The notes: generated by a model not told the origin, from the sequence alone. Positions 9,999 through 26,511 are shown, numbered from the stretch's first letter. The stretch is 64,000 nucleotides of DNA from Cyanobium sp. Morenito 9A2 (GCF_024345575.1 NZ_JAGQBJ010000003.1:1-64000), one strand, 5' to 3'. Numbers and translations are program-made.

Positions 9999-10074
9999 GG
10001 CCTGAGGGGGCCAAGCCCAGAGGGGCAGAGCCCCAAAGGGGCCAGTGCTGACCGGCCCCTGGCGCCCTCAGGCC
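9999..10074. terminator. Large compound inverted repeat between convergent genes
   Basis: Outer arms GGCCTGAGGG (9999-10008) and CCCTCAGGCC (10065-10074) are perfectly complementary. Inside are GGGGC-aga-GCCCC-type and AGGGGCC/GGCCCCT hairpins. It lies between the end of the plus-strand ORF and the end of the minus-strand gene, overlapping the latter's stop codon. A bidirectional terminator or structured 3' region is the simplest reading; no long T-run is present. Confidence 0.55.
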
Positions 10075-10364
10075 GCAGCCAGTGACTCTGTTGCCATGGC
10101 GGCCTGGACCCGCTCGATCTCCGCTTCATGGGCGGCCTCCAGTGCAACATCGATCTCTTGGATGCGGGCCAGGAACTGCTCCATCGCGGGGATCAGCTCT
10201 TCCTCCAGCAGGGTGATCTCTTCCTCGCCATAGGGGTGATCGATCCAGAGGCGGCGGATTGGCTTGCCCCGGTGGGTGCGCAGCAGCCGGGTGAGCGCCA
10301 GGTGGCAGCAGTGGACGAGGGCGACGGGATCCTCGCGGGAGAGGGAATCGAGCCAGAGGGACAT
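10068..10364 (-). CDS. Hypothetical acidic helical protein of the element
   Basis: 98 residues from the ATG at 10364 (MSLWLDSLSREDPVALVHCC). The middle (GKPIRRLWIDHPYGEEEITLL) and the tail (ARIQEIDVALEAAHEAEIER) predict a mostly alpha-helical, possibly coiled-coil protein. No family recognised. A member of the recurrent hairpin family lies about 45 bases upstream, so it is probably controlled together with the other minus-strand element genes. Confidence 0.6.
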   Translation of the reverse strand: MSLWLDSLSREDPVALVHCCHLALTRLLRTHRGKPIRRLWIDHPYGEEEITLLEEELIPAMEQFLARIQEIDVALEAAHEAEIERVQAAMATESLAAA

Positions 10365-10657: not shown

Positions 10658-11212
10658 TCAGGACAGCTCGGCCCTGAGGGCGGCGAGGCCCGCCTGCCGG
10701 CGCCGCTGGACGGCCATGGCGCTCATGCCCAACTGCTGGCCGATCTGGCGGAGGGACTGGCCTTCCAGCACCGACAGCCGGATGATCGCCGCCTGGCCTG
10801 CCGAAAGCCGATCGAGCAGGGCCTCGATACCCACGCCATCGGGCTGGCCCGACTGCTCGGGCGCCTCCAGCTGATCGATCCAGAGATCACCGCTGGGCAT
10901 CGGGGTGTGCAAGCTCTGGTGGCTCCAGGGATGGCCGCCTTTCTCGTGCTGACGCCGCGGGACCCGGACCAGGCGGCCGTGATCTCGGAGGTGGTGGAGC
11001 AGGGCGCCTTTGATGCACCGCCTGAGATAGCCGGCGGCAGAGGCCGGCTCGCTGACCTGCCGGCAGGAGAGCCAGAGCTGCATCCGGGCCACCTGGCGGG
11101 CATCCTCCAGCTCGATCACCCGGCTGCCAGCAGCGATGCCGCGGGCGATGGAATCGGCGAGGGGCAGGAACTGCTGAAAGAGGGCATCGGCCTGGGATGG
11201 GCTGCGGGCCAT
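10658..11212 (-). CDS. Sigma-70-family RNA polymerase sigma factor of the element
   Basis: 184 residues. A region-2-like segment covers about 15-75 (ELEDARQVARMQLWLS, then GYLRRCIKGALLHHLRDHGR). Region 4 covers about 136-183, with LSAGQAAIIRLSVLEGQS and an HTH of the form LRQIGQQLGMSAMAVQRRR. The short, region-1-less layout is that of an alternative or phage-type sigma factor. It sits in the minus-strand half of an element whose plus strand encodes capsid and fibre genes, so it is a candidate activator of that late module. That link is inference. Confidence 0.82.
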   Translation of the reverse strand: MARSPSQADALFQQFLPLADSIARGIAAGSRVIELEDARQVARMQLWLSCRQVSEPASAAGYLRRCIKGALLHHLRDHGRLVRVPRRQHEKGGHPWSHQSLHTPMPSGDLWIDQLEAPEQSGQPDGVGIEALLDRLSAGQAAIIRLSVLEGQSLRQIGQQLGMSAMAVQRRRQAGLAALRAELS

Positions 11213-11387: not shown

Positions 11388-11675
11388 CTAAGGCCCTGGC
11401 GGCCTGTTGCTGTCGCTCAAGGCCTTGCCGCCGAGCAACGCCAGCAAGGTGTTGAGGGCAACGCCGAATGCGGTGTGGACCGCGTTGTCGAAGCGAGTGC
11501 AGAGCCCCCCCTGGGGCACCAGTTGTTGAGCGCTGCGCCAGGCGCAGACACCCGCGCCAAAGGCGTAGAGCGAGACCTCAGCGATCAGCACCACAGCGAC
11601 CAGCCGCAGCAGGAACCGCTCGCGGTTGAACGGCCGCTCCTCCACCGGCTCAGGGCTCCTGGAAGACACCGACAT
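11388..11675 (-). CDS. Small two-helix membrane protein, possible holin-like partner
   Basis: 95 residues from the ATG at 11675. Two hydrophobic segments (LLRLVAVVLIAEVSLYAFGA, about residues 22-41, and AFGVALNTLLALLGGKAL, about 70-87) with a charged N-terminus. It overlaps the end of the YkuD-domain gene by 26 bases, so the two are translationally coupled. A small two-helix protein beside a cell-wall enzyme in a phage-like element suggests a holin or spanin-like role, without direct evidence. Confidence 0.6.
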   Translation of the reverse strand: MSVSSRSPEPVEERPFNRERFLLRLVAVVLIAEVSLYAFGAGVCAWRSAQQLVPQGGLCTRFDNAVHTAFGVALNTLLALLGGKALSDSNRPPGP

Positions 11676-12390
11676 AGACGGTGCCCTTCTTGTAGAGGGG
11701 CAAGACCTTGTCGCGCAGGTCGATGTTGTGGAGCCGCACGCAGCCGAGTGTCGGCAATAGTGGCTGGTTGGCGGCCCAGGCACCGGGCCAGCCGCAACCG
11801 GAGCCGCCGCCGTGGAGCATGATCCCGGCCCGGCCGACCGTCACCTCCTGGTTCTCCAGCTCCACCAGATCGAAGCTGTACCAGCCGTAGGACATGGCGG
11901 TATCGCTGCAGGTCGGGCTGGGGTTTTGCTCGTAGTCGGGATAGAGCTGGCCGAGCCGATACAGCCCCGGTGGGGTGTCGGTGCTGGTGTGTTTCCAGTC
12001 GTTGTCGGCACCCTGGCCCCGGGCCAGACACGGCACCTTCCACAGGAAGGCACCGGAGTGGTCGTAGGCCTTCATGTCCTGGTCCCGGTCGTTGACGAGC
12101 AGATAGGAATCGCCTGGTTTGACCGGTGCGGCGATCTTGGGACCCACCAGGCCGGCTTCTTCATCACCACGGGGATCGAGGCCTCCGCTGGGAGTTGGGG
12201 GAGCCGGTGGAGCCGGTGGCTTCTCGCTGAACTTGAGGGCCCAGACGGCTTGCTCGTCGAGCACGACCTCGCTGCCTGGGAGATCTGCAATGGCGGAGTG
12301 GAGGAGCCAGACACCGGACACCTGTTGGTGTTCCCCCTTGAAGGCTTCCCAGCGGTCCTGGAACCGCTCGGGGGTCATGGTGCTGGACAT
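11650..12390 (-). CDS. L,D-transpeptidase (YkuD) domain protein of the element
   Basis: 246 residues with no signal peptide. A proline-rich linker near residues 57-68 separates a short N-terminal part from the YkuD domain. The catalytic block reads GIMLHGGGSG, then LPTLGCVRLHN about 20 residues on, with His and the nucleophilic Cys at the spacing expected for L,D-transpeptidases (about residues 191 and 214). Chromosomal family members cross-link peptidoglycan in the periplasm. A cytoplasmic, phage-context version could instead remodel or cut the wall at exit. It is coupled to the small membrane protein 11388-11675. The start at 12390 gives MSSTM; the second Met at 12378 is possible. Confidence 0.8.
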   Translation of the reverse strand: MSSTMTPERFQDRWEAFKGEHQQVSGVWLLHSAIADLPGSEVVLDEQAVWALKFSEKPPAPPAPPTPSGGLDPRGDEEAGLVGPKIAAPVKPGDSYLLVNDRDQDMKAYDHSGAFLWKVPCLARGQGADNDWKHTSTDTPPGLYRLGQLYPDYEQNPSPTCSDTAMSYGWYSFDLVELENQEVTVGRAGIMLHGGGSGCGWPGAWAANQPLLPTLGCVRLHNIDLRDKVLPLYKKGTVYVGVFQEP

Positions 12391-14237: not shown

Positions 14238-14987
14238 TCAGATGGCCGCCTGTGGCAGCTCCCCATCCACCAGAAACAACTCCCTGGCAAAGCGATGGAT
14301 CCGCCCATCGTCATGACTCAGGAAGGAGGCGTGATCAGCGCAGATCTCGCAGGTGATCTCCACCTGATCAAAGGGTGTGGAGCCGAGGGCCGCCGGGGTG
14401 AACACCCCCACCTGGACCAGCGGCTCTCTTGAGCGAGCGCTGAGGTATTCAAACGCCTCGATAGCGGCCTCGCGCATCCAGTTCCCCAGCCGTTGGCTGG
14501 CTCCGTAGTGACGCGGGTCGCGTAGTGCCGCCTGGGCGCCTGCGATGGCAAGGTTTTGCAGCTGCAGTCCGCGGCAGGTGTCGATCTCCACCGAGAACAG
14601 GGCCTGGCGGCGGCGAATCGGTGCAGTGGGGGCGGTCACCTGGCCCTCCCAGAACAACAGGGCGTAGTACGCGCCTTCCACCAGCGATCCGGAGCGGCTG
14701 CGTGAGCCATAAAACATCCCCCTGTGCTCCCGCCCCCCAAAGCGCGAACCATGGAGCAGGGGCGGATAGCGGAACGGGGTGGTGAGCAGCGGATGGCTGG
14801 GCGTGGGCGGTGAGAAGGAGGGCAACGGGGGCTTGCTGGATTCCACCAGGCCCTCCAGACGCGCCAGCTGCTCGAGGTCATCCACCAGGGGGCCAAGCGT
14901 GTCGATGCCCTGCTGCTGCACCAGTCGCAGCACCGTTCCCTTCAAGGGCACAACCGCGGCGGCCTGGGCGATGGCGAGCAGATCCAT
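14238..14987 (-). CDS. RES-domain toxin (NAD+-degrading)
   Basis: 249 residues. The RES fold signature is visible around residues 72-115: FRYPPLLHGSRFGG, then GMFYGSRSRSGSLVEGAYYA, holding the conserved Arg, Tyr and Ser positions; a late FDQVEI/DHASFL block completes the domain. Characterised RES toxins (MbcT, ParT) consume NAD+ or ADP-ribosylate targets. It is downstream of and six bases from its Xre antitoxin on the same strand. Confidence 0.85.
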   Translation of the reverse strand: MDLLAIAQAAAVVPLKGTVLRLVQQQGIDTLGPLVDDLEQLARLEGLVESSKPPLPSFSPPTPSHPLLTTPFRYPPLLHGSRFGGREHRGMFYGSRSRSGSLVEGAYYALLFWEGQVTAPTAPIRRRQALFSVEIDTCRGLQLQNLAIAGAQAALRDPRHYGASQRLGNWMREAAIEAFEYLSARSREPLVQVGVFTPAALGSTPFDQVEITCEICADHASFLSHDDGRIHRFARELFLVDGELPQAAI

Positions 14988-14992
14988 CGCGC

Positions 14993-15379
14993 TCAGATCC
15001 GGGCGCGCATGGCATCGAGGTACTGCACGATCTCGACGAGCGCCTCGGTGCGCTGCACCTGCTCGGCCGGCACGCCGCCGGTGTGGCGATTGGCGGTATG
15101 AAACCAGTGGCGCATCTGAGCAGGGTCGTTGCCCACCAGCACCGCCAGGCTGCGGTAGAGGCGCACCACCAACAGTGCCAGCTCGCCGGTCTTGGAGAGC
15201 GGCTCAATGCCTTTGCCACGGACAAAGAGCGAACGGTCGCGACCCAGCACCCGCGCCAGGGCGGAGCGGCTCAGATCCAGTTCTTCCGCAGCCCGCACCA
15301 CCGCCTGGAGCAGAAGCTGGGCGTCAGTGAGCGGATCCGCTGAGGCGGCGACTGGTGGCGAGCGATCAACAAGGGGCAT
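14993..15379 (-). CDS. Xre/MbcA/ParS-type antitoxin
   Basis: 128 residues. It has the N-terminal HTH-like LDLSRSALARVLGRDRSLFVRGKG and a C-terminal toxin-binding (DUF2384-like) part with ALLVVRLYRSLAVLVGNDPAQ and MRHWFHTANRHTGGVPAE. The order antitoxin then RES toxin is the family standard. A perfect palindrome lies six bases before the ATG and is the probable autoregulatory site. Confidence 0.88.
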   Translation of the reverse strand: MPLVDRSPPVAASADPLTDAQLLLQAVVRAAEELDLSRSALARVLGRDRSLFVRGKGIEPLSKTGELALLVVRLYRSLAVLVGNDPAQMRHWFHTANRHTGGVPAEQVQRTEALVEIVQYLDAMRARI

Positions 15380-15583: not shown

Positions 15584-15603
15584 ATGGCAATAGGTGGTGA
15601 CGT
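15584..15603 (+). promoter_or_regulatory. Shared upstream sequence, site A (before the capsid gene)
   Basis: ATGGCAATAG followed by GTGGTGACGT. The same 20 bases recur with one difference at 22337-22356 before the second collagen-like gene, and the (A/G)TGGCAATAG core recurs at 18701 before the first. It is a candidate late promoter or activator site; it begins 47 bases before the capsid ATG. Confidence 0.55.
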
Positions 15604-15630
15604 TGCTGGGGTCAGGCCCCGGGAGTGACC

Positions 15631-16530
15631 ATGGGCCTCACGTTGATCGAGGCGATGAAGCACGAAACCCGAGTCGATCGGCTCGCGGTGACCAAGACCT
15701 TCACGGAAGGTCAGCTGCTTCGTCGTTTGCCGTTCCGCAACCTCTCAGGCGGCGCCCTGCAGTTCGCCAAGGAAAAGAAACTGCCCCGCGTCGGCTTTCG
15801 TGCTGTGAATGAGGGCTACCGCCGTGATTACGGGGCGGTGGCGCAGGAGAGCGAGTTCGTTCACCTCTTCGGTGGTGATCTCGATGTGGACCGCTCGATC
15901 GTTGATCTCAACGGCCCTGAGGCCCGTGCTTCTCAGACGGAGCAGAAGGTGCGCTCGATGCGGCTCACCCTGGAGGCGGCGATCATCAACGGTGACGCCA
16001 CCTTTGATCCACGGGCGTTCAACGGCCTGAGCAAGCGGCTGGTCCCTGGCGGGGCTCAGACCGTCGACAACATCAGCGGCACCGTCAAGCTCACCAAGCT
16101 GGAAGCGGTGGTTGATTCGGTCAACGCCCTCGGCGGTGAGAAGGTGCTGCTGACCAGCAAGGCGGGCCGGCGCCAGATCAGCTCAGCCTGCCGCGTTGCT
16201 GGCGGCGATCTGTATCAGGTGATCGACGGCCGCCACTGGTTCGAGGACACCGAGATCCTGGTGGTCGATCAGGACGCCCAGGGCCACGAGGTGCTGGGCT
16301 TCGGGGAGGCGGCCAACACCACGTCGATCTACTGCGTGGCGCTCGGTGATGAGCTGATGACCGGCATCCAGGGCCCGTTCGAGGGTCGCTACGGCATCTC
16401 GGTGCGGGACTTCGGCGAAGTACAGGATGCTCCGGTGTTCCGCACCCGCGTCGATTGGTACGTCGGTTATGCGGTGGTCAATGACAAGGCGATCGCTCGC
16501 CTCTACAACATCGGCCCAGCTGTGGCCTGA
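15631..16530 (+). CDS. Phage-type major capsid protein (HK97-like fold expected)
   Basis: 299 residues from the ATG at 15631, preceded by GGAG at five bases; a GTG at 15625 is also in frame. Recognisable family blocks are LTLIEAMKHETRVDR at the N-terminus, LPRVGFRAVNEGY, FGGDLDVDRSIVDLNG and AAIINGDATFDPRAFNGLSK. These match the major structural proteins of tailed phages that begin with a short LIEA helix and lack a long scaffold domain. The reading frame is intact. It leads a plus-strand series of virion-like genes, but no portal, terminase or protease gene accompanies it in the window. Confidence 0.85.
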   Translation: MGLTLIEAMKHETRVDRLAVTKTFTEGQLLRRLPFRNLSGGALQFAKEKKLPRVGFRAVNEGYRRDYGAVAQESEFVHLFGGDLDVDRSIVDLNGPEARASQTEQKVRSMRLTLEAAIINGDATFDPRAFNGLSKRLVPGGAQTVDNISGTVKLTKLEAVVDSVNALGGEKVLLTSKAGRRQISSACRVAGGDLYQVIDGRHWFEDTEILVVDQDAQGHEVLGFGEAANTTSIYCVALGDELMTGIQGPFEGRYGISVRDFGEVQDAPVFRTRVDWYVGYAVVNDKAIARLYNIGPAVA

Positions 16531-16566
16531 TCCCCCTCCCCATTCACCTTCTGAGAGGACACGACC

Positions 16567-16989
16567 ATGGCCCTGCAGGGCAACAAACTGATCGACGCCG
16601 CCACGACGCTGGTTGGCTGGGTCAACTACAACGCCACTGACCCCTTTGAGCGCACCCGCGTCAGCGCTGAGGTGGTGCGGCTGACCACGCCGCTTGATGC
16701 GGCTGGAGCCTTCACGCTGCTGGCGAGCCACCCCGGTGCCGTTGCGGCGGTGACGGTGGTGCTGCAACTGGCGCCGCTGCTCAAGGACGGCACCGTCGGC
16801 ACCTGGGTGACGGCGGCCACCGTGGCGATCCCCGCCGCTGGTGGTCAGGTGGAGGCCCCGATCGCGGGCGGCAGTTTGGCGGTGGCACCTGCTGATGCCG
16901 CCAACGTCGAGCTGCCGGCCTTCTTCTATGCCAAGGCCACGTTGACGCCGTCGACCCCGAACGGCGCCCACGTCAGCCTCACCTACTGA
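16567..16989 (+). CDS. Virion-associated hypothetical protein, possible head decoration
   Basis: 140 residues, beta-rich and alanine/threonine/valine-dominated (VNYNATDPFERTRVSAEVVRL, then AVTVVLQLAPLLKDGTVG). GAGAGGA stands seven bases before the ATG. It directly follows the capsid gene, a position often held by decoration or head-completion proteins. That function is positional inference. Confidence 0.65.
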   Translation: MALQGNKLIDAATTLVGWVNYNATDPFERTRVSAEVVRLTTPLDAAGAFTLLASHPGAVAAVTVVLQLAPLLKDGTVGTWVTAATVAIPAAGGQVEAPIAGGSLAVAPADAANVELPAFFYAKATLTPSTPNGAHVSLTY

Positions 16990-16996
16990 GGCGGCC

Positions 16997-17746
16997 ATGA
17001 GCGACCTTGAAAAAGGCAAGCCGGACCCGCCGTCGCCGCCGGCGCCCAAGCCCCCCAAGAGGAGGTACAAACCGACCAAGCCAGGGCGGCCCTGGGCCCC
17101 GCCGCAGCCGGAGGTGGAGGGCACGGATCCAACGGTTCCGACCGCACCGACACCGGATCTACCCCCCGAGCAGCCCACTGATCCACTGACCCCCAGCGAT
17201 CCGACCGTGGAAGTTGAACTGATGGACTCTGATCCTGTGCTGGAACTGCCGCCTGAGGGGATGCTGCGCATCTCCAAATCGGGTCGACACGATCAGTTCG
17301 TGTACCCGGTTCATTCCGAGCGCTGGGCGGCGGACGGCTGGAAGGTGCATCCGCCGGTGAACGTCGATCCGAGCACGGGTGCGGAGGATCGTGCTGAGCC
17401 TGAGGTGCCCGAGGCGCCTGTGGATCCTGTTGTGCCTGTGCCGCCCGAGGCGCTTGAGGTGCCCGCAGTGGAGCCACTTCCGGGAGCCATCCCGGATGCA
17501 CTCGAACCTGTAGTGCCTGAGGTGGCGCCTGCCGATGCGACTGATTTCGCGTCGATGACGAAGGCTCAGATCGTTGCGGAGGTCGAGGCCACCTACGGCG
17601 TCGCCCTCGACCCCTCTCAGACCAAGAGCGAGCTGGTAGAGCAAGCCGAGACGCTGGCGACTGAGCCGACGCCCCAGCCGGTGCCTGGCCTTGATGTTCC
17701 GGCCACAGAGCCCGAGCCGATGGTTCCGAGCGATTTGCTGGGCTGA
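16997..17746 (+). CDS. Proline-rich virion-like protein with a HeH/LEM-like C-terminal motif
   Basis: 249 residues. Residues 1-70 and 125-180 are proline- and acid-rich spacers (repeated PEVPEAPVDPVVPVPPEAL-like phrases). A folded block lies at about 92-120 (MLRISKSGRHDQFVYPVHSE). Near 193-225 is SMTKAQIVAEVEATYGVALD, then TKSELVEQAETLA, the pattern of a helix-extended-helix motif often seen in phage neck or head-tail proteins. It starts eight bases after the previous stop, so it is in the same operon. Confidence 0.6.
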   Translation: MSDLEKGKPDPPSPPAPKPPKRRYKPTKPGRPWAPPQPEVEGTDPTVPTAPTPDLPPEQPTDPLTPSDPTVEVELMDSDPVLELPPEGMLRISKSGRHDQFVYPVHSERWAADGWKVHPPVNVDPSTGAEDRAEPEVPEAPVDPVVPVPPEALEVPAVEPLPGAIPDALEPVVPEVAPADATDFASMTKAQIVAEVEATYGVALDPSQTKSELVEQAETLATEPTPQPVPGLDVPATEPEPMVPSDLLG

Positions 17747-17816
17747 GCCCTGCGGCACCGCTCTGCGGCCTGGCAAAGGGAGATAGCGCCACCCTCGTGC
17801 GAGGAATCGCCTGTTC

Positions 17817-18608
17817 ATGCCTTACCCCTTGCCTCCAGTCGATGAGAGCGGCCGGGTGCGGCTGCTCCCCCCGTATGGCTGTCCGGGTCAGGAGGAGTGG
17901 GTCTTGCACCATGAGGCCGACCGCTGGCTGCAGCTGGGCTTTCGGGTGGGGACGGTGCCAGCCCAGGCGCTGGAGTTGTTCTGGATGCCCTCAGATCGGC
18001 TCTGGAGTGATCCGATCGGTTGTGCGCCGATTGCGCTCACGATCGACCCGCTGATCAAGGCGCCCCAGCCGATCCAGGTGAACTGGGGCGATGGAAGCAT
18101 CGAGACGATCGGCTGGGATGCCCTCTCGCGGGAGGTGCCGATGCCGCGGCATGTGTACCTCGATCGTGTGGATCTGACGGTGATCGTGTCGATCGGCCTG
18201 ACGGTGGCCAGCTTGCCTGTGGCGCTGCTGGGTTGCCCGGTTCCGCCGAGCGTGGTGCAGCAGGGGCTCTCGGGCGGCGGCGATGGGAGCGGCGGCCTGG
18301 CCGGTGTGGAGCCCCTGGTGCCGGGCGACGGCCTCGACGGGCGTGCCTACAACGGTTCGCAGACCGAGCTGTGGCGTCTGCGCTTGCATCCGGACGGCGG
18401 GCTGGCGCTGCTGCCGAGCCCTGTTGACGGCAAGCCGGCGCTGGCGGTGATGTACGGCAGCGGCGCCGCCAGTCGCGGCACCCGCTGGTATTCCGGTGAT
18501 GGGCCGCCGCTGAGCGCGGCGCTGAATCCGCCGCCGGCTCCGGGCGATCTCTACCTCGACCGTCTCACCGGCACGGTCTATGAGCTGATGAGTGGAGGCG
18601 GCCTCTGA
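17817..18608 (+). CDS. Virion or fibre-like protein
   Basis: 263 residues. A beta-rich first half includes QPIQVNWGDGSIETIGWD. A glycine-rich linker follows near 152-162, then a C-terminal block RLRLHPDGGLALLP ... PAPGDLYLDRLTGTVYELMSGG. The GDLYLD...TGTVYEL ending recurs in altered form in the other fibre-like genes here (GDLWIDTN at 18959; GDMYLDTVSGTVYKL at about 22970), suggesting a shared junction module. Function beyond structural is unknown. Confidence 0.65.
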   Translation: MPYPLPPVDESGRVRLLPPYGCPGQEEWVLHHEADRWLQLGFRVGTVPAQALELFWMPSDRLWSDPIGCAPIALTIDPLIKAPQPIQVNWGDGSIETIGWDALSREVPMPRHVYLDRVDLTVIVSIGLTVASLPVALLGCPVPPSVVQQGLSGGGDGSGGLAGVEPLVPGDGLDGRAYNGSQTELWRLRLHPDGGLALLPSPVDGKPALAVMYGSGAASRGTRWYSGDGPPLSAALNPPPAPGDLYLDRLTGTVYELMSGGGL

Positions 18609-18690
18609 TTGTTGGACTGACGCAAAGACACCGCTCCAGAACGGGACGGGTCAGGCAATAGATGGGTCAGGCCCGTGTTGGTGGGGTCCC

Positions 18691-18710
18691 GGAATCATCA
18701 GTGGCAATAG
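18691..18710 (+). promoter_or_regulatory. Shared upstream sequence, site B
   Basis: GGAATCATCAGTGGCAATAG; 19 of 20 bases are identical to 22327-22346. It lies 21 bases before the first collagen-like ORF. A further GGCAATAG occurs at 18655-18662. Confidence 0.6.
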
Positions 18711-18731
18711 AGCTCGTAGAGCCAGGAGCAC

Positions 18732-18959
18732 ATGGGCTGGGATTCCACCGGTGATTCGATCAAGGGCCCCTCTGGCGCAGCTGGAGCTACTGGCCCTGCT
18801 GGCCCTGCTGCTGCGTGGGGTGCGATCACAGGCACCCTCAGCGATCAGAGCGACCTGCAGCAGGCCCTGGCGCAAAAGCTCGATGCCGCTCGGCTGACGG
18901 TGGGGCCCACCCCGCCGCCTGCTCCCTCCAGCGGTGACCTCTGGATCGACACGAACTGA
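18732..18959 (+). CDS. Short collagen-like fibre protein
   Basis: 75 residues: a GPSGAAGATGPAGPA stretch of Gly-X-Y triplets at about 12-26, then a phrase common in phage fibres (AWGAITGTLSDQSDLQQALAQ) that probably forms a trimeric helix, and a terminal GDLWIDTN. It reads as a trimerising stalk. It is followed two bases later by the next gene. Confidence 0.6.
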   Translation: MGWDSTGDSIKGPSGAAGATGPAGPAAAWGAITGTLSDQSDLQQALAQKLDAARLTVGPTPPPAPSSGDLWIDTN

Positions 18960-18961
18960 CC

Positions 18962-19774
18962 ATGGCGATCACCACCCGCGACCAGCTGATCGCCGCGCTG
19001 GCGAACTCCCGCCACGCGCTGTTCGATAAGGCTTCTGTGGCGAACGCCGTTGCCGGTCGCTTCTACTCGCTCTGGCGGGCCACTGGCCAGCCCGGGCAGG
19101 GTGCGATCCCGGCGGCGCAGGTGGCCTGCACCAAGGCCTTGCTCGGTGCCCTGCCCTTCGACAACCAGGTGTTGCCGGTGGCGAACTACCTGGCCTTGGT
19201 GGATGTGGCCACGAGCTTGGCGACGGCCACGCTGGAGATCCACGATCGCCTCTGCCATCAGGGCGGCCTGGTGGGCAACGTGGCGACGTCTCAGACCACC
19301 AACCTGCCGCTGACCCTTGCTGGAGTGTCTGCTGAGCGCATCGGCCCGGCGGATCACAGTCAGATGCAATGGTGGCTCGAGTGGTACACAGACACGGGCG
19401 GAACGGGGGTGAACGCGACCGTGGCCGTGACCTACAGCGATGACACCACAGGCAACATCGTGGTGGCGCTAGCAGCCACCAGCCGCGCCAGCGGCCTCTA
19501 TCAGATCCTCCCCGAGGCCGGTAAGACCGGCATCAAGGCGGTGAACAGCGTCATCCTCAGCCTCACGACCGGCACCGCCGGGAGCTTCGGGGTGACCTGC
19601 ACCCGTTACCGCGCCGGGTTCTTCACGGTGGTGGCGAACAAGGCGGAAGTCTTCGACTGGGCGGGCCTGGGGCTGCCTCAGATCGCCAATGATGCTTGCC
19701 TGGCCTTGATCACGCTCTGCACGACCACGACCACTGGAGTGGCCAAGGGTGTGGTGCGCTTCTCGGCTGGCTGA
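18962..19774 (+). CDS. Virion-like structural protein
   Basis: 270 residues starting MAITTRDQLIAALANSRHAL. A helical N-terminal part of about 90 residues precedes a beta-rich domain (NATVAVTYSDDTTGNIVVAL, GFFTVVANKAEVFDWAGL). The DQLIAAL-type opening is one I associate with phage structural proteins, but I cannot name the family. It is intact and closely spaced between a collagen-like ORF and a small tryptophan-rich ORF. Confidence 0.6.
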   Translation: MAITTRDQLIAALANSRHALFDKASVANAVAGRFYSLWRATGQPGQGAIPAAQVACTKALLGALPFDNQVLPVANYLALVDVATSLATATLEIHDRLCHQGGLVGNVATSQTTNLPLTLAGVSAERIGPADHSQMQWWLEWYTDTGGTGVNATVAVTYSDDTTGNIVVALAATSRASGLYQILPEAGKTGIKAVNSVILSLTTGTAGSFGVTCTRYRAGFFTVVANKAEVFDWAGLGLPQIANDACLALITLCTTTTTGVAKGVVRFSAG

Positions 19775-19777
19775 GCT

Positions 19778-20029
19778 GTGAGCCGTGAAGTTCGAGATCG
19801 TGCTTTGCCCTTCACGGGTGGCTCCGATCGCTGGGACCGGGGCCCGGCGGGGCAGATCATCACCGATGAATTCTTCTGGGCGGTTGAGCCGCCGCCGGGG
19901 GGCGATGGCTTGCTCTCTTTGTGGAGCAGCGGCGCCTGGCTGCGTCGGCCGGCGAAGGTGTGGAGCGGTGGCGCATGGGTGGAGAAGCCGGCGAAATGCT
20001 GGAGCGGCAGCGATTGGTTGCTGACCTGA
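19778..20029 (+). CDS. Small tryptophan-motif protein of the fibre module
   Basis: 83 residues from a GTG three bases after the previous stop. The C-terminal third repeats a short unit three times: LWSSGAWLRRPAKV, VWSGGAWVEKPAKC, CWSGSDWLLT. Such W-x-G-x-W repeats form small beta-hairpin units in some phage tail and receptor-binding proteins. Role inferred from context only. Confidence 0.6.
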   Translation: MSREVRDRALPFTGGSDRWDRGPAGQIITDEFFWAVEPPPGGDGLLSLWSSGAWLRRPAKVWSGGAWVEKPAKCWSGSDWLLT

Positions 20030-20060
20030 GCCTCAATAGCCCCCTGCAGCACACCACCCC

Positions 20061-20419
20061 GTGGCCTCGGCCTTCCGCGATGCCGCCTCGGCTGACTTGC
20101 AGCCCTGGCTGGAATACCCCACCCTCGCCTTGATCAATGCCGGCTCGTCGATACCGCCCAGACCTTGGTTCCAGCCTTCGTGACTATGCGCATCTAAGCG
20201 AATGGAGAGATCAGCCAATTCCTGAGTTACCACGTCCTCCTGCTCAAGCTGCCGCCGTCCTGGCGGGAGCTTCATGCCCGGAGGCAGAAGCTGCTGCAGC
20301 ATGTAGCTTCTGCTCAAGAGGGGCCGCCCCGGCTGGTGATCACCACATCCCATTGGGAACAGATTGTCCAAGCATGTTCAGTGATGGTCGTAGCGTTCTC
20401 TTCTGATGATATTCACTGA
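20061..20419 (+). pseudogene. Remnant of a virion-like protein
   Basis: Two plus-strand pieces in different frames read as protein: ASAFRDAASADLQPWLEYPT (from 20061 to a TGA at 20181), and FLSYHVLLLKLPPSWRELHA and onward to a TGA at 20417, with a TAA at 20195. Together they look like one gene broken by a frameshift and a stop. The minus-strand frame over the same bases looks like its shadow. No family assigned. Confidence 0.4.
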
Positions 20420-20496
20420 CACGCACCTTCGCCAAGCCGCAAGATGACAAGGCTGTAGATGCACGCATAAGGCGGCGGCTTTGGCGCATGGCGGTG

Positions 20497-21063
20497 TTAG
20501 TCAACATTCTCTTCATTATTGATATATTCCTCAAGGCGGTTCCATTTGAAGATTACAATATTAGAGGGTATCGGAGATCGACTGCCTTTGTGAATCATCC
20601 TTCGGACTGTCATAATCCAGCGCGATGTTTCTGGAGTGTCGGGGACCACCAACAGTCCCCAGCGCCCAGTGCATGATGCTGCAAGTAGACTGCCTAGGAA
20701 GTATTTCGATTTTGCATTCTCGACTTCAATTGCAAGACCGACCATTGGATTGGGGTTGGCTTCCTTGCGCCACCCTTTATCAAAGTCAACGGTCGCAGGA
20801 AATTCGCAAACGCCTAGCAAGTCGTTTAAGGCACTGTCAAGATCACTTTCGTGCTGACGAAATCTACAAATATCGGAGCAGGCAACTTCGTGACTCCTGT
20901 TGCCCTTTGATGCTATCGGCTCGATTGTTAAATCTACAATGAATGTGCGCTCCTCTGCATCGTCTAGGTGGTCAAACACGTTGAGCTTCCCAATTGGTCT
21001 CAATCCCTTCGAGAGGAAGTGCCGCCTGAGTCGAGACGTTATCGCGCGTTCGTTTAGCGTCAT
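20497..21063 (-). CDS. Hypothetical protein, possible PD-(D/E)XK-like nuclease
   Basis: 188 residues, AT-richer than the surrounding fibre genes and on the opposite strand. DFDKGWRKEA followed by MVGLAIEVENAKSKYFLGSL and GLLVVPD has the strand-helix order of a PD-(D/E)XK core, but the usual E-x-K is E-V-E-N, so catalysis is doubtful. It looks like cargo inserted into the structural module. Confidence 0.45.
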   Translation of the reverse strand: MTLNERAITSRLRRHFLSKGLRPIGKLNVFDHLDDAEERTFIVDLTIEPIASKGNRSHEVACSDICRFRQHESDLDSALNDLLGVCEFPATVDFDKGWRKEANPNPMVGLAIEVENAKSKYFLGSLLAASCTGRWGLLVVPDTPETSRWIMTVRRMIHKGSRSPIPSNIVIFKWNRLEEYINNEENVD

Positions 21064-21188
21064 TTCAATAGCCTAACGTCCCCGATGACCTATCCCTACT
21101 TGCTTCTGGCATCCGAGCCTGCTCCGCAGGCGAAATACTAGAAGTGCCGCAGGCATAGGGATTAGGTCCATCGGTCTGTTCGCTTCTG

Positions 21189-21890
21189 TTAATTCACTTG
21201 AAAATAGTCTCTGGCTCTAACCCCGATGTACCATGTCAAAGTCTTGTTGACGGAGAATCCGATGATGACACCCACGCCAAATGGAATAGCTTTCTCCAAA
21301 CCCTATCGTGTAAAAGTAATTCCGACTCTTTTAAAAATCTCTTTGACCGCAACTAAGGTGGAGCCCTGTAGATATTTCTGAACCATCTTGGTAAATGCTT
21401 TTGACCCAACCTCCTTGGTACCCTTTTGCGTAGCTTGATTGATAGCCCCGAGGCCTGCGATAATGTAACAAAGCCGTCTCTCCTCTTCCGAGAGGATATC
21501 GTGATTGTAGATATGAGCGAGGGACATCACCATCTCGACCTGAAACTTCATGCAAAGGGCGATATCGGCAGTTGCACCGCCGGCGACAGCGGCAACTGTT
21601 CCGATACCGGGGACAACTCCAGCAAGGGCAGTTGTGCCTCCAGTGAATGCCGCCATGTAGCTGTAGTTCTTGATGACCTTGTTGGCTACCATTTCCTTGA
21701 CGTCCTCCTCATCACGTTCACCCTGATACCGTCTGCGGTATTTTCTCAGTATCGCGTCTGTCTCCTTTTTTATGTCTTCAGGTTTAGCCAGGACAAACTC
21801 TACTGCTTTTAACAGAGTCCATTCCTTTTTTGGGTTATTGCCATTGGGCTCTCCGCCCTCTGGTGCCGTTGGTGCTGTTGGTGTGCTCAT
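21189..21890 (-). pseudogene. EcsC-like membrane-associated protein, interrupted by an in-frame TAG
   Basis: From 21890 the frame gives a Pro/Gly-rich start, a charged helical part, then a hydrophobic region (AAFTGGTTALAGVVPGIGTVA, AVAGGATADIALC) as in EcsC-family proteins. A TAG at 21303-21305 ends the ORF after GITFTR. The same frame then continues with GLEKAIPFGVGVIIGFSVNK and RARDYF, the expected EcsC C-terminus, to a TAA at 21189. So the gene has one premature TAG. It is AT-rich, and with 20497-21063 it is probably a cargo insertion. Confidence 0.65.
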
Positions 21891-22326
21891 ATTGTTAGCG
21901 AACTTGTTATTGGATGGTTTCCGTGAACCGCCGCTGAGTGTTCACCCCTTTCCGTGAACCACGGCTCAAGGACATTGGGCGCATGGCAAGAACCTAGCCG
22001 CATCATAGGCTTTCAGATTCACCTATACAAGCTTTACCGTGGTTCTCGGACCCGAGAACCACTTGATCCTGGAGCTACACAATGTCTGCGGGCTTATGAC
22101 CCCAAGCGGTCCATGATCGAGAACAGGCATAGATCTTGTTCGTGCTCACGGCATGAGGGCACATCAGATGCTGGATACTGCGGATGTCCTGCTCGATCTA
22201 CGCAGGTGCTGGGCAGCTTTTCATTTGTCCCTCAGTGGCCCAGATCCTATGAGTGTTCGTGCCTTCTGGTTGATGGAAAGAACGAGCTATCAACTCTGCT
22301 GATCAGCAGAGAGAGATTCGGGTAGC
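21891..22326. other. Non-coding spacer between the cargo and the second collagen-like gene
   Basis: There is no gene. It contains TTCCGTGAACC twice (about 21918 and 21949) and a perfect inverted repeat at 22039-22062. Confidence 0.5.
22039..22062. terminator. Perfect 11-bp inverted repeat
   Basis: GTGGTTCTCGG and CCGAGAACCAC flank two bases. It could terminate incoming transcripts or bind a dimeric regulator; no T-run follows on either strand. Confidence 0.4.
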
Positions 22327-22356
22327 GGAATCATCAATGGCAATAGCTGGTGACGT
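22327..22356 (+). promoter_or_regulatory. Shared upstream sequence, site C
   Basis: The first 20 bases match site B (one difference) and the last 20 match site A (one difference), so this copy joins the two halves. It begins 50 bases before the second collagen-like ORF. Recurrence before three virion-like genes suggests a promoter or binding site of the element. Confidence 0.6.
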
Positions 22357-22376
22357 GACGCGGGACCTCGCCCTCA

Positions 22377-23012
22377 ATGCCCTGGAGCAACACCGGCTCG
22401 CTGCTTGGCCCGCAGGGCAGCCCAGGTCCAGCTGGAGCGGCCGGAGCGGCGGGTGCCGCTGGTCCCCAAGGTCCGTCAGGCCCGCAGGGAACGCCCGGCA
22501 CAGCCGGTGCAGCCGGGGCAACCGGCCCAGCCGGCCCAGCCGGAACGGCTGGAGCTCCTGGAGCAACCGGTCCGGCCGGCCCGCAAGGCGCGGCGGGCAC
22601 CGGCATCAACCTCAAGGGTTCGGTGGCCACCTACTCGGCGCTGCCGACCACCAACCGGCAGCAGGGTGATGCCTACCTCGTCGCGGACGAGGGCGACACG
22701 CTCTACTCCTGGGACGCTACCGGCAACGTCTGGGTCAATGCAGGCGCAATCCAAGGCCCGGCCGGGCCGACGGGCCCCGCTGGAACGGCTGGTGCTCAAG
22801 GTCCGGCTGGCGCCGCTGGAGCTCAGGGCCCGGCTGGTACGGCTGGAGCAGCGGGCATCCAGGGCCCGGCTGGCGCGGCTGGCACCACCGGTGCGGCGGG
22901 CTCCCGCGGCACCGGTGGTTTGTGGGCTCCGGGCCGCCACCGGCCAACATTCCCGGCCAGATCGACGGGGACATGTACCTCGATACGGTCTCGGGGACCG
23001 TCTACAAGCTGA
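22377..23012 (+). CDS. Collagen-like stalk protein (out of frame with its probable head domain)
   Basis: Two blocks of Gly-X-Y triplets rich in GPAGPAGTAGA-type units (about residues 11-75 and 125-180) flank a short globular insert (YSALPTTNRQQGDAYLVADE, then DTLYSWDATGNVWVN) typical of phage fibres. After GSRGTGG near 22916 the frame turns into arginine-rich shadow, while the next frame continues smoothly with GSGPPPANIPGQIDGDMYLD. The real product probably joins the ORF at 22922. About 180 residues are convincing. Confidence 0.75.
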   Translation: MPWSNTGSLLGPQGSPGPAGAAGAAGAAGPQGPSGPQGTPGTAGAAGATGPAGPAGTAGAPGATGPAGPQGAAGTGINLKGSVATYSALPTTNRQQGDAYLVADEGDTLYSWDATGNVWVNAGAIQGPAGPTGPAGTAGAQGPAGAAGAQGPAGTAGAAGIQGPAGAAGTTGAAGSRGTGGLWAPGRHRPTFPARSTGTCTSIRSRGPSTS

Positions 23013-23635
23013 CGGTGAGTGCTGGCACTCCGGTTGGCAGCCTGCCGGCGATCGGCGGCGCACTCGAGGGCGGCTACTACGGCGGGTTGATCTCGACTAC
23101 GGCGAATGGTGTGGCGACCCATGCGCTGATCATTTCGCCCAAGTCCACCGGTCAGGCCCTGAAGGTGCTCAAGACCGCCAACACGGCCACCGCCGGGGCC
23201 ACGAGCACCTTTGACGGCCTGGCCAACAGCAACGCCGCCAATGATGCGGGCCATCCCGCTGCCCAGTGGGCGCGGGCGCTCACGATCGGCGGCTACACGG
23301 ACTGGTATGTGCCGGCGCTCTACGAGCTGGAGATCCTGTTCCGCAAGTTCAAGCCCGACAACACCGACGGCAACACTGGAGGGTTCGGCGCCAATGCTTA
23401 CGCGGTGCCGGTGACGACGGCCAACTACAGCATGTCGATCCCGCCGCAGACCGTGGTGGCGGGCTTCTCCATTGGTGGTGCTCAGGCGTTCTTCGAGGGG
23501 AACATGTGGACCTCAACTGAGGATCAGGCCACCACTGCGATCTGCCAGGACTGGTATTACGGCTCCTGGGGGCCGATCAGCAAGAGCTTCAGCCAGACGA
23601 CACGCGCCATCCGCAAGATCCCTGTGGTGCCCTGA
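22922..23635 (+). CDS. Lcl_C/DUF1566-like domain protein, probable fibre head
   Basis: 237 residues from a GTG. It starts with a fibre junction (PGQIDGDMYLDTVSGTVYKL) and then has a domain with the DUF1566 pattern: AAQWARALTIGGYTDWYVPAL, YELEILFRKFKP, and a late NMWTSTEDQATTAICQDWYY ending in RAIRKIPVVP. In Legionella Lcl the same domain caps a collagen stalk and binds glycans, so stalk plus this domain makes an adhesin or receptor-binding fibre. It is one frame off from the collagen ORF that overlaps it. Confidence 0.72.
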   Translation: MGSGPPPANIPGQIDGDMYLDTVSGTVYKLTVSAGTPVGSLPAIGGALEGGYYGGLISTTANGVATHALIISPKSTGQALKVLKTANTATAGATSTFDGLANSNAANDAGHPAAQWARALTIGGYTDWYVPALYELEILFRKFKPDNTDGNTGGFGANAYAVPVTTANYSMSIPPQTVVAGFSIGGAQAFFEGNMWTSTEDQATTAICQDWYYGSWGPISKSFSQTTRAIRKIPVVP

Positions 23636-24057
23636 TGGGTTGGGTGGCGAGGATCGACACGCCTCGGCGCGTGGAGGAGCAGCGGGTCACGGCGACCGTT
23701 TCGGCGCCGTCGGTTCTGGATCTGACTTTTGTGGAGCTGGGCACTGATGGCCGCTTCCTGGCGGTCGGTTGTGACATCGCAGCCTGGATCACCTTTTATG
23801 CGAGCGCGCAGGCGCGGAACGCTGATACGGCGCGGCCGATCGTGGAGGATCCGCCGCTCTCAGCCGGGGTGCTCCTGGATCTGAGCTTCGATGGCGTGAA
23901 TCCGTTGCTGCTGCCCGCACCGGGCTCGACCTACTCCAACGGTGAGACGCCGCTGCAGGCGCGGCTTTTTGCTCGGGTGAGGACCGCGCTGAATGTGGCC
24001 CATGCGGCGACGGTGACGGTGCGGGCCCTGGTCGAGCACGACACGGCGGGCAGCTGA
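23635..24057 (+). CDS. Virion-like hypothetical protein
   Basis: 140 residues, beta-rich (VTATVSAPSVLDLTFVELG; AGVLLDLSFDGVNPLLLP). The ATG overlaps the previous stop (TGATGG) and its own stop overlaps the next ATG in the same way, so these three genes are translated together. Probably a small structural component; no family assigned. Confidence 0.65.
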   Translation: MGWVARIDTPRRVEEQRVTATVSAPSVLDLTFVELGTDGRFLAVGCDIAAWITFYASAQARNADTARPIVEDPPLSAGVLLDLSFDGVNPLLLPAPGSTYSNGETPLQARLFARVRTALNVAHAATVTVRALVEHDTAGS

Positions 24058-24929
24058 TGGCGGCAACGATCCGCGATCTCAGCCGGCGTGGTGACGAGCC
24101 AAACGCCCTGGGTGTGCTGAGCGCCATGGCGGCGTTGGTGGACACGGAGCTGGCCACCTGGATCAGTGCGGCCAATTCTCAGAACCTGGGCCAGTTGCTG
24201 AGCCTGCTCACCAACAGCGCGGGGGCGCCGGGCTTCCTCGGTTGGACGATCAAGGCACGGCTGGCTGCGCTGAGCGGTGGCTCGCCGGTGGAGCTGATGA
24301 GCCAGTGGGTGTTGAACACGACCACGGCGGCGGTGACCGCCCAGGTGGGCCTGGCTGCGGGCCATGCACCGGCTGGCGGCCTGGGTAATCACGGGTTGCT
24401 TTCCGGTGGCCGGGGCACGACGAACACAGCGGGCACGGTGACGCTGCCCATGCCGATTGGTGCGGCGACGGCCTGGAGCCTGAAACCGGGCCAGGAGTTC
24501 TTCGCCTTCTCGTTCTCTCAGCACAGCTTCACGAACCGACAGGCCCTGGCGCTGCTGATCGCCAAGGACGTCACCACCGGTGACTGGCACCTCTCGAACA
24601 CCGACATGGCCGCTGTGATCAACACGGTGGCCTGGAGCCGCAACCTGCCGCAGCTGCTGCTGTCTGGGAGCTTCCGCCAGGAATGGTTCAGCAGTGGACC
24701 GCCGTTTGTGCTCAGTCGTCCGGCGCAGTGGATCCCGATCACGCCTGGTGTGGGCTACGTGGTGCCACTGCCGCCGGTGCAGTGGTGGGATCCGGTGGTG
24801 TTGCCGGAAGACCTGGCGATCTACAACCGCACCTTCTCCAACCTTGGCTACTTCAAGGCGGCTGATGGCAGCGAATGGCTGCAGCTCGGTCCCGCCCGCC
24901 TGGCGGTGCGGGTTGTTAATCCCACCTGA
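24057..24929 (+). CDS. Virion-like hypothetical protein, paralogous in part to the next gene
   Basis: 290 residues. A helical N-terminal part (LGVLSAMAALVDTELATWIS) precedes a beta-rich domain containing PGQEFFAFSFSQHSFTNRQA, VTTGDWHLSNTDM and YVVPLPPVQWWDPV. Its GQEFFAFS motif and following 'D...W.........N' layout resemble GREFFCYS of the next gene, so the two may share a receptor-binding-type fold. Coupled to the upstream gene by overlapping start and stop. Confidence 0.65.
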   Translation: MAATIRDLSRRGDEPNALGVLSAMAALVDTELATWISAANSQNLGQLLSLLTNSAGAPGFLGWTIKARLAALSGGSPVELMSQWVLNTTTAAVTAQVGLAAGHAPAGGLGNHGLLSGGRGTTNTAGTVTLPMPIGAATAWSLKPGQEFFAFSFSQHSFTNRQALALLIAKDVTTGDWHLSNTDMAAVINTVAWSRNLPQLLLSGSFRQEWFSSGPPFVLSRPAQWIPITPGVGYVVPLPPVQWWDPVVLPEDLAIYNRTFSNLGYFKAADGSEWLQLGPARLAVRVVNPT

Positions 24930-24940
24930 CCTGAGACGCC

Positions 24941-26140
24941 ATGGGCCTCGCCACCTCAGCCCAGCAATGGGCCTCCTGGAACTGGACCAGCAAGGCAGTC
25001 GATAGCCCTGGGCTGCGGCTGAGTGAGGCCTTCTCGGCGTTTGCGGCAGTGGTGAATGCAACGCCCGGAAATGCCGGTGTTCCGTTGTCGATCGTCAAGG
25101 ATCACAATTCCGCGACGGGTGCAACGAACTTCGGGTATGTGTGGCGCCTGGGCCATCCGGTCAATCCGGTGCTCTTGAGCTTCTACAACACCAGCAAAGT
25201 GCAGGGCTACAACGCAGTGTCGAGCTCAGCCCTGTTGAGGCTGGGCCTGGAGAGCGTCTACACCAACGACAGCAGCAACGGCGGCTATGGCACGTTCGCG
25301 ACGACCTTGTTCAGCGTCAACGCGGGCCTGTCCCATTACGCGCCGGATGGATCGCCCGCGATTGATTACGGCGCGATGTTGCTGGTGCTGCAGGACACGG
25401 CGCCAGGCCGTGAGTTCTTCTGCTACTCGATTGCACCGATCGGCGCGGACACCTACACGCAGAACCACACGATGGTTCTGTTCAGGTCACCGGCAACATC
25501 AGGCTGGAATGTGTTCTTTAACCGCTCAAACGCCTATGTCGGCATGTTCTATTCGCAGAACAGCTACATCTGGAACAACAACACGATGGTGGCGTCGTCT
25601 GTGATTCCGCCTCCGCCCACGGGCAGCGAACAGCAACTCATTCGCGGTTGCGGGTTGTATGCGACCACCACCAGCGGTGTGTTCGCTCCTGGCACCATCC
25701 AGCCACGGGTTGCGCTGCCGGATTGTCTCTGGCTGGGCAGCAACCAGATCAGTGATCCGCGCCGCCTGGGCCGGGCCGCCTCTCCGGCCGGCGGCGGCAC
25801 CTTCTACCAGCTGGCAGCGGCGTACAGCGGTGCCACCGATCTCTGGTTCCTGCAGCCAACCGGGACGCCTGCGGCGTTAGCGGGCTGGAGCACGGTGGGC
25901 TCGTTGCCGTGGACCACGGTCCCCGATCGGTTGAGCTTCTGCCCGCTGGCACCGTTGCAGCCCCTGGCGATGGGGCCCGCTGCTGCTCCTGACTTCCTCA
26001 CGGACTGGAGCACGGTGGCGGTCGGTGCCGCTGGTGTACGCCAGCACCCGTTCTATGCCAAGCAACTGCAGGGCAGCGACGGGGGTGGTGGCGGCGGCAG
26101 GCCCAGCAGTGGGGTGCTGTGGCCCCGTGGCAACGGTTGA
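24941..26140 (+). CDS. Virion-like hypothetical protein with a glycine-rich C-terminus
   Basis: 399 residues from an ATG 11 bases after the previous stop. A helical start (AQQWASWNWTSKAVDSPGLR) is followed by a long beta-rich body (PGREFFCYSIAPIGADTY ... MVLFRSPATSGWNVFFNRSN). The last 25 residues are GSDGGGGGGRPSSG-like, as in exposed fibre tips. It is the last large gene of the structural series. Function unknown. Confidence 0.65.
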   Translation: MGLATSAQQWASWNWTSKAVDSPGLRLSEAFSAFAAVVNATPGNAGVPLSIVKDHNSATGATNFGYVWRLGHPVNPVLLSFYNTSKVQGYNAVSSSALLRLGLESVYTNDSSNGGYGTFATTLFSVNAGLSHYAPDGSPAIDYGAMLLVLQDTAPGREFFCYSIAPIGADTYTQNHTMVLFRSPATSGWNVFFNRSNAYVGMFYSQNSYIWNNNTMVASSVIPPPPTGSEQQLIRGCGLYATTTSGVFAPGTIQPRVALPDCLWLGSNQISDPRRLGRAASPAGGGTFYQLAAAYSGATDLWFLQPTGTPAALAGWSTVGSLPWTTVPDRLSFCPLAPLQPLAMGPAAAPDFLTDWSTVAVGAAGVRQHPFYAKQLQGSDGGGGGGRPSSGVLWPRGNG

Positions 26141-26156
26141 GAGCTGCGGCCCTGCG

Positions 26157-26333
26157 GTGACATGCGGACTGATTCGGATTCGCTGTGAGCGCCGTTACCT
26201 GAAAGCGGGTGGCAAGGCGCACGAGCTGCCGAGTCCTGATCACCGGGTGTTCGATGTGCCGCCTGGGATGGCGAACCAGATCGCGCGTTGGTACCGGCAG
26301 CAGGGCTGGGAGGTAATCGAAGAGCCGATCTGA
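26157..26333 (+). CDS. Small hypothetical protein at the end of the structural operon
   Basis: 58 residues from a GTG at 26157 (MTCGLIRIRCERRYLKAGGK), then HRVFDVPPGMANQIARWYRQ and GWEVIEEPI. It is compact and probably folded, with no known family. It ends shortly before the tRNA-Pro terminator. Confidence 0.6.
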   Translation: MTCGLIRIRCERRYLKAGGKAHELPSPDHRVFDVPPGMANQIARWYRQQGWEVIEEPI

Positions 26334-26421: not shown

Positions 26422-26437
26422 TTTGGTATAACTGCAG

Positions 26438-26511
26438 TCGGGGCGACAGGATTCGAACCTGCGACCTAGTGCTCCCAAAGCACCCGCGCTACCAAGCTGC
26501 GCCACGCCCCG
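26438..26511 (-). tRNA. tRNA-Pro(TGG)
   Basis: The 74-nt minus-strand cloverleaf has acceptor CGGGGCG/CGCCCCG, D-arm GCGCAGCTTGGTAGCGC, anticodon loop TTTGGGA (anticodon TGG) and T-arm CAGGTTCGAATCCTG. The 3' end faces the phage-like element, the geometry expected if tRNA-Pro is the element's attachment gene. I did not find a second copy of the 3' half on the left side. Confidence 0.95.

Follow-up and report, generated by a model that had tools for sequence, protein, structure and literature searches.

The window analysed here comprises bases 1-64000 of contig C20 in the 3.1 Mb draft genome of Cyanobium sp. Morenito 9A2. Within it, at 15.6-26.3 kb, a phage-type major capsid protein (MCP) gene is followed by about ten virion-like open reading frames (ORFs) on the plus strand, several of them collagen-like or fibre-like; the capsid assignment, proposed in a first-pass annotation made from the sequence alone, is borne out by matches to PHROG 212 and GP7. 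We find that this module is, judging from comparative sequence evidence, the right-hand part of a copy, eroded by insertion sequences (IS), of a large integrative element whose complete relatives carry their own packaging, head and lysis genes. We think it probable, if by a modest measure, that this element makes capsids of its own and depends on others for its tails.

Attention had been drawn to the module because no packaging, portal or tail genes accompany it, and we too recognise no terminase, portal, protease, tail tube, tape measure or integrase within 15.6-26.3 kb of the window. The lack of packaging genes is nevertheless local, a striking absence caused by a contig break and by erosion. 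The contig begins with a 107-bp overlap with the end of contig C4 (Table 1), a gene cut at one contig end carries on in the other, and 0.7-26.1 kb of C20, together with stretches of C4 between 68.5 kb and a point close to the contig end, match in order a single island in the same-genus genome G001. Because of the end overlap, the shared cut gene and the colinearity with G001, C4 and C20 are very probably adjacent in the genome. The large terminase gene (TerL) of this genome lies on C4 at 68.6-70.3 kb and is frameshifted; the small terminase gene (TerS) is truncated beside a transposase gene, and transposase-like genes are also found downstream of TerL. Compared with G001, this copy is without the portal, the protein c15 (we label protein clusters c1, c2 and so on), a LysM protein, the scaffold, primase, helicase and integrase. 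At the tRNA-Pro gene of the window only the right end of the element remains, and the tRNA-Pro repeat that marks the left end is not found on C4, consistent with a deleted left end. The element thus extends beyond the span originally described, covering at least 8.4-26.5 kb of the window and continuing into C4. A second, tiny relic is present at C1:200653-201054, where the first ~105 portal residues stand beside toxin-antitoxin-like and restriction-like genes; nearby, C1:202169-202460 matches window positions 21901-22191 at 74%.

The relatives of this copy reveal what a complete element contains. We searched 300 genomes of the same family as the window genome for the capsid gene and found relatives in 54 of them, with up to seven copies each; TerL is present in 46 of the 54 and the portal likewise in 46. 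The order of capsid and fibre genes recurs in many of these genomes, and so it is not a product of chance. In fuller copies the order runs TerS, TerL (PHROG 38), sigma factor, portal (PHROG 145), c15, LysM protein, scaffold (PHROG 206), lysis genes, capsid, decoration protein and fibres, and the single island of G001 holds, in order, integrase, primase, TerS, TerL, portal, scaffold, about 60 kb of cargo, lysis genes, capsid and fibres. Among relatives the elements span 56-105 kb and include a tyrosine integrase of PHROG 1. Their ends are marked by a repeat of the 3' 44-46 bp of tRNA-Pro: in the closed genome G083 an 83,706-bp element has the intact tRNA-Pro gene at one end and, at the other, a 44-bp copy of the 3' end of that gene. 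Other element copies adjoin tRNA-Gly. G083 has two MCP modules but one TerL. In G208 two tandem copies with a period of 56,093 bp are identical over all 43,408 bp compared, for which a recent duplication and an assembly effect are both possible. The LysM protein, c19 (L070:6753-7922 and homologues), is encoded directly after the portal and c15 and joins an N-terminal part related to the S-CBS2 structural protein gp013 to LysM repeats; from this arrangement it could be a vertex or tail-interface protein.

These genes do not look like debris. In most genomes the ORFs for TerL, portal, scaffold and capsid are long and uninterrupted, and the ratio of nonsynonymous to synonymous substitution rates (dN/dS), which we took from close pairs only because dS is high in distant ones, is about 0.02 for the MCP and 0.1-0.2 for TerL, portal, scaffold and c15 between the closest pairs of complete elements. 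Between the window copy and G001 it is 0.07 for the MCP and 0.05 for the decoration protein. By this measure the element family is not decaying and is under purifying selection.

What the complete elements lack is a tail module that we can match to those of their nearest phage relatives. In the cyanophages S-CBS2 and S-CRES3 a full tail block sits between the connector genes and the scaffold and MCP genes. Hidden Markov models (HMMs) of TerL, portal, scaffold and MCP from complete relatives match PSS2, S-CBS2 and S-CRES3 at E 1e-21 to 3e-109, and element-gene HMMs also find counterparts in these phages for the post-TerL sigma factor, c15 and c19 (both weakly), c9 and c4. In the reverse search, S-CBS2 TerL, portal, scaffold and MCP give 16-35 matches each in element ORFs, against 0 for 12 S-CBS2 neck and tail proteins (gp014 to gp029, including the tail tube and tape measure). 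A tape-measure search with PF10145 was negative, but this is the wrong family for these phages, and for that reason we repeated it with PF20155 (TMP_3), which matches S-CBS2, S-CRES3 and JBD30. With both phage controls positive, PF20155 was absent from 31 of 32 element genomes, and the single match is on another contig than the element; over the whole survey it exceeds the cut-off in 3 of 300 family genomes, compared with 54 of 300 for the capsid gene. The tail-tube family PF06199 exceeds the cut-off in 0 of the 32 element genomes, the control phages being positive, and a search with S-CBS2 gp024, run without a positive control genome, gave no match.

Two places where tail genes might have been overlooked were considered and set aside: a 2-5 kb gap between TerL and portal, which has lower G+C and is not conserved across elements, and a 1043-aa ORF in G062, a candidate tape measure in a genome with no PF20155 match (the ORF has no defence match either and stays without an assignment). 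The tail of PSS2 itself escapes the S-CBS2 tube and tape-measure profiles, so that homology alone might not reveal an unrelated tail. The stronger argument is the lack of room: in compact elements only 6-8 kb separate portal from MCP, and apart from c15, c19 and the scaffold no ORF there exceeds 290 aa. Since the tail tube and tape measure are missing family-wide, it is tails, not packaging, that would have to be borrowed. Two further loci bear on tails in this family. In G197 a separate element of ~11.5 kb (C5:249170-260674; L117, L118) is bounded by integrase genes related to that of the capsid element. It has no capsid gene but encodes a tape measure of 1043 aa (35% to S-CBS2), along with a primase and a neck protein resembling gp10; on its gene content it is possibly a tail-only element. 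On contig C30 of G126 a weak tape-measure match lies about 10 kb from a distant capsid gene (30%), and the two probably belong to a conventional divergent tailed prophage.

The virion-type genes themselves offer some hints of what a particle might look like. For c1, encoded just after the capsid gene, the best matches to the predicted fold include the similar-length phage capsid proteins of Milano (8fwg, Z 7.4, rank 1), 7-7-1 (9hz8, Z 6.7) and BPP-1 (3j4u, Z 6.0); because these Z scores are below 8, the assignment of the model as a capsid decoration or cement protein is suggestive only. A tail-tube identity for c1 was dropped, since capsid decoration proteins stand near the top of its jelly-roll fold matches. 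At the other end of the run, the predicted structure of c4 (AlphaFold2 pLDDT 72) aligns with the JBD30 baseplate chain 8rk3_K at a VIA-align Z of 11.7 over 237 residues, the next row being at 4.4. The length of this chain fits that of the arm protein gp47 (as taken from the gp47 gene), and in JBD30 gp47 and gp48 together make the pilus-binding arms (PMC11445458). The sequence of c4 has no match in the PDB and its structure no significant Foldseek PDB match; a clear top match came only from VIA-align and from BFVD. As modelled, then, c4 resembles a baseplate arm of the gp47 type, and its neighbour c13 may play the gp48 part. The cargo region is large and variable, and in G001 it lies between the scaffold and capsid genes. 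In G001 this cargo includes BREX, and in G083 type IIG restriction proteins alongside Druantia-like ones; G208, like one viral contig, has proteins of the Hma type.

Putting these pieces together, we propose that the element inserts itself at a tRNA gene, uses a primase of its own for replication, and would build and fill its own capsid with TerS, TerL, portal, scaffold, capsid protein and decoration protein. It would bring lysis genes of its own, adhesin-like arms and fibres, and often an anti-phage defence cargo, which in several of the element copies sits between scaffold and capsid. Its head lineage would be inherited from that of PSS2 and S-CBS2, with the tail module absent. Complete elements should be able, as far as their genes tell, to integrate and to replicate, to put heads together and fill them, and to lyse cells, and unable to build a siphovirus tail. 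Most likely they spread as capsids to which a co-infecting cyanophage supplies the tails, and the element-encoded arms, with their JBD30 baseplate-arm fold, may help adsorption. A more specific version, which we offer only tentatively, is a head-only family with defence-carrying capsids, tailed either by cyanophages or by a separate tail-only element as in G197, whose JBD30-like arms would steer adsorption. Several points weigh against a tail-dependent element. It is known here from its genes, and particle formation, induction and transfer are predictions; no helper phage was identified, and lysis genes and a size of 56-105 kb are unlike known tail-stealing satellites. Several fibre-region proteins lack a known fold, and a short or very divergent tail could have been missed by our searches. 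Moreover, because c4 resembles a baseplate arm protein, the virion may carry a tail-tip structure of its own.

These last points lead directly to the chief rival, a short unrecognised tail, which we regard as possible though on the whole unlikely: the complete elements would be autonomous temperate phages whose short or novel tail is made from c15, c19, c3, c9, c13 and c4, and the window copy would be a decayed one. That genes for head, lysis, integration and replication are all present speaks for such a phage, as do the LysM repeats of c19, the fold of c4 and the size of the elements. The failure to find any of the 12 S-CBS2 neck and tail proteins speaks against it, as do the absence of a tape measure or tail tube from element genomes (one tape measure on another contig aside) and the compact portal-to-MCP interval with its few long ORFs. 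That all the loci are instead unrelated dead-prophage remnants, with head genes kept by chance, is quite improbable. There is precedent in the PSS2-like prophage of Synechococcus RS9917, which has been called a relic, with genes missing and many transposases (PMC2784084), and the window copy, with its frameshifted TerL and without portal, scaffold or integrase, fits the description. Long open ORFs in most genomes, low dN/dS, exact attachment repeats, a perfect tandem and the fact that the same genes are always missing argue the other way, so that this reading is strongly disfavoured for the family and holds for the window copy. The first-pass annotation had listed a decayed prophage among its own readings, and had allowed that comparative genomes might reveal the deletion of an ordinary prophage; for this copy decay is what we find (frameshifted TerL, truncated TerS, and no portal, scaffold, integrase or replication genes left), but the element from which it derives is unusual in its own right and the family is not decayed.

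Two other suggestions made at that stage fare worse. A satellite that makes capsids and fibres and takes terminase and portal from a helper would explain why the window alone has neither, and would suit the two MCP modules and one TerL of G083. It is contradicted by the TerL, portal and scaffold that relatives carry upstream within the same element, and by the broken TerL of this very copy on the adjoining contig; we consider it refuted for the family and very improbable overall, with a trans-complemented degenerate copy as a possible form of it. Just as improbable is a protein shell with surface fibres domesticated by the host. In this genome the capsid gene and most fibre genes have stayed open while packaging genes decay, and the MCP has a dN/dS of 0.07 against G001; most of the MCP divergence may, however, predate the decay, no cargo-loading partner is seen, and the relatives, as integrated mobile elements, have attachment sites and an integrase as well as portal, terminase and lysis genes. 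Our preferred explanation remains a capsid-making element that would depend on borrowed tails.

Table 1. Features of the window bearing on the element, with positions counted from the first base of contig C20.
Feature	Position	Strand	Evidence
Contig start	1..107		Exactly equals last 107 bp of contig C4
ArdC-like anti-restriction / MPTase-PolyVal protein	8462..9319	-	Pfam PF18818 E 7e-36, PF08401 E 2e-19; cluster in 11 loci
Conserved 98-aa protein	10068..10364	-	Cluster of 17 members across loci
Sigma-70 family factor, likely late-gene regulator	10658..11212	-	PF08281, PF04545, PF04542 over cut-off; PHROG 351
Small hydrophobic protein, holin candidate	11388..11645	-	Conserved in 15 loci; no PHROG match
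YkuD L,D-transpeptidase-like protein, putative endolysin	11650..12390	-	PF03734, 23.6 bits vs cut-off 23.4
Toxin-antitoxin-like pair, 80 + 89 aa	12474..12982	+	RelE/YefM-like by inspection only; conserved in G001
Two conserved element proteins, 65 + 212 aa	13012..14016	-	Clusters c18 (11 members), c12 (13 members); no PHROG match
RES-domain toxin	14238..14987	-	PF08808 RES E 6e-17
Likely antitoxin of RES toxin (Xre-like)	14993..15379	-	Adjacency
Major capsid protein, HK97 fold, PSS2/S-CBS2 lineage	15631..16530	+	PHROG 212 major head protein E 6e-56; Pfam GP7 E 8e-15
Jelly-roll protein c1, likely capsid decoration/cement	16567..16989	+	AlphaFold2 pLDDT 84.5; fold matches
Proline-rich protein, cluster c2	16997..17746	+	In 19 loci; weak relation to S-CBS2 gp042
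Fibre-like protein c3	17817..18608	+	Cluster of 19; dN/dS 0.14
Short collagen-like ORF (c31) and virion-type c22 (270 aa), c26 (83 aa)	18732..20029	+	Clusters in 6-8 loci
Inserted cargo: 188-aa ORF and EcsC/DUF697-like protein	20497..21890	-	PADLOC PDC-S29 E 2e-9 for the second
Collagen-like stem and Lcl_C-like tip, two overlapping frames	22377..23635	+	PHROG tail-fibre families; PF07603 E 5e-5
Virion protein c9	23635..24057	+	PHROG 9627; HMM E 2e-20 to 4e-25
Virion protein c13, S-CRES3 gp72 relative	24057..24929	+	HMM E 1e-6
Virion protein c4	24941..26140	+	S-CRES3 gp72 HMM E 3e-18; S-CBS2 gp009 E 1e-10; JBD30 baseplate-chain fold
Intact tRNA-Pro(UGG), likely attachment site at right end	26437..26511	-	ARAGORN; 3' end repeats in relatives

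The features of the window are collected in Table 1. The window capsid protein shares 42% identity with the PSS2 major head protein, and PHROG 212 and GP7 are the right families for it; the standard HK97 capsid family PF05065 has no match in the genome. Along the run that follows, which stops at the intact tRNA-Pro(UGG), c26 (the last gene of its group) has a PHROG 27712 match at E 0.001, and c9 matches by HMM the C-terminal part of S-CBS2 gp031, S-CRES3 gp94 and PSS2 gp087. The fibre genes had been taken to lie all on one strand, and the plus-strand run is real, but at about 20.1-22.3 kb it is broken by an insert with two minus-strand genes, which relatives do not have at this place. Beside this insert, at 20189-20407 within the fibre operon, lies a piece of the sigma factor usually found after TerL. 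The stem-tip fibre is one ORF of about 340-395 aa in L040-L043 and L046, and is shorter in the nearest relatives, L038 and L039.

Upstream of the capsid gene, the opposite strand had been described as carrying plasmid-type maintenance genes. It does hold the ArdC-like gene and one RES/Xre-like pair, but consists mainly of lysis and regulation genes of phage type (YkuD, holin-like and sigma-70), and the RelE-like toxin-antitoxin pair is on the plus strand. Several relatives retain the ArdC-like gene at one edge of their capsid-lysis block. In some relatives the YkuD position is occupied by an endolysin homologous to those of PSS2 and S-CBS2, and it is because it adjoins the endolysin gene that we regard the small hydrophobic protein as a putative holin. 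A tRNA-Asp gene (2275-2350) and a transposase fragment (2957-3208; IS256-like by inspection) also lie within the island and may point to a further insertion.

How does this element compare with known systems? The closest are the tailed siphoviruses PSS2, S-CBS2 and S-CRES1/2/3, with identities of 34-37% for TerL, 28-30% for the portal and 38-42% for the MCP; the likeness extends to the scaffold, the post-TerL sigma factor, connector-region proteins and several virion proteins, and the gene order is partly the same. S-CBS2 and S-CRES3, however, carry a tail tube, tape measure and tail tip, where the elements have instead a large, variable, defence-bearing cargo region. Prophages have been reported as scarce or relic in marine picocyanobacteria (PMC2784084, PMC6157547), and in Synechococcus RS9917 PSS2-like relic islands hold a terminase, integrase, sigma factor, structural gene and lysozyme (Sullivan et al. 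2009, PMC2784084). That is a single degraded relic as described, whereas the family that we find is widespread and has, under selection, the same head-only genes throughout. Tycheposons and other tRNA-associated cargo elements of picocyanobacteria, some near restriction systems (PMC10187409), we liken by description only; a tail-less head module of PSS2 type is not described in the literature we searched.

Among satellites, those of the P4 type and other phage-inducible chromosomal islands (PICIs) that use a helper's packaging and capsid lack TerL and portal, each of which is present in 46 of our 54 genomes, and encapsulins or domesticated shells come with a cargo protein and have no portal, terminase or lysis genes, all three of which, with an integrase, are carried by complete relatives. 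Known PICIs are smaller than the 56-105 kb elements. Capsid-forming PICIs (cf-PICIs), as summarised in later papers, have their own capsid, portal and terminase and need a helper for tails only (Alqurainy et al. 2023, via PMC10690885, PMC11389934). The elements likewise have capsid and packaging genes and no tail genes, but they belong to another head lineage and carry lysis genes, scaffold, fibres or arms and defence cargo; of the features that mark cf-PICIs (a head maturation protease, an HNH endonuclease and PICI regulatory genes), no protease or HNH gene was recognised among the element proteins scanned, a scaffold being present instead. By analogy the elements most likely work like cf-PICIs; we do not claim membership, since there are differences in head lineage, size, lysis genes and cargo, and the use of a helper is a proposal. 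The Streptomyces satellites MulchRoom and MiniFlayer have their own terminase, portal, scaffold and capsid and no tail tube, MiniFlayer with short fibres as well (PMC10690885); likened by description only, they differ in having no primase and in being satellites of lytic phages. New here are the prevalence (about one in six genomes sampled), a head-only gene set that stays constant under selection, and the defence cargo. The data suggest that head-and-packaging elements related to PSS2 are common in this family, with several copies often present, and that apparent relics may be tail-less by design. Because the sampled elements carry BREX, Hma and Druantia-like systems, they would be a capsid-packaged vehicle for moving phage defences between picocyanobacteria, which raises the question of whether cyanophages, by lending their tails as helpers do for cf-PICIs, unwittingly deliver defence islands.

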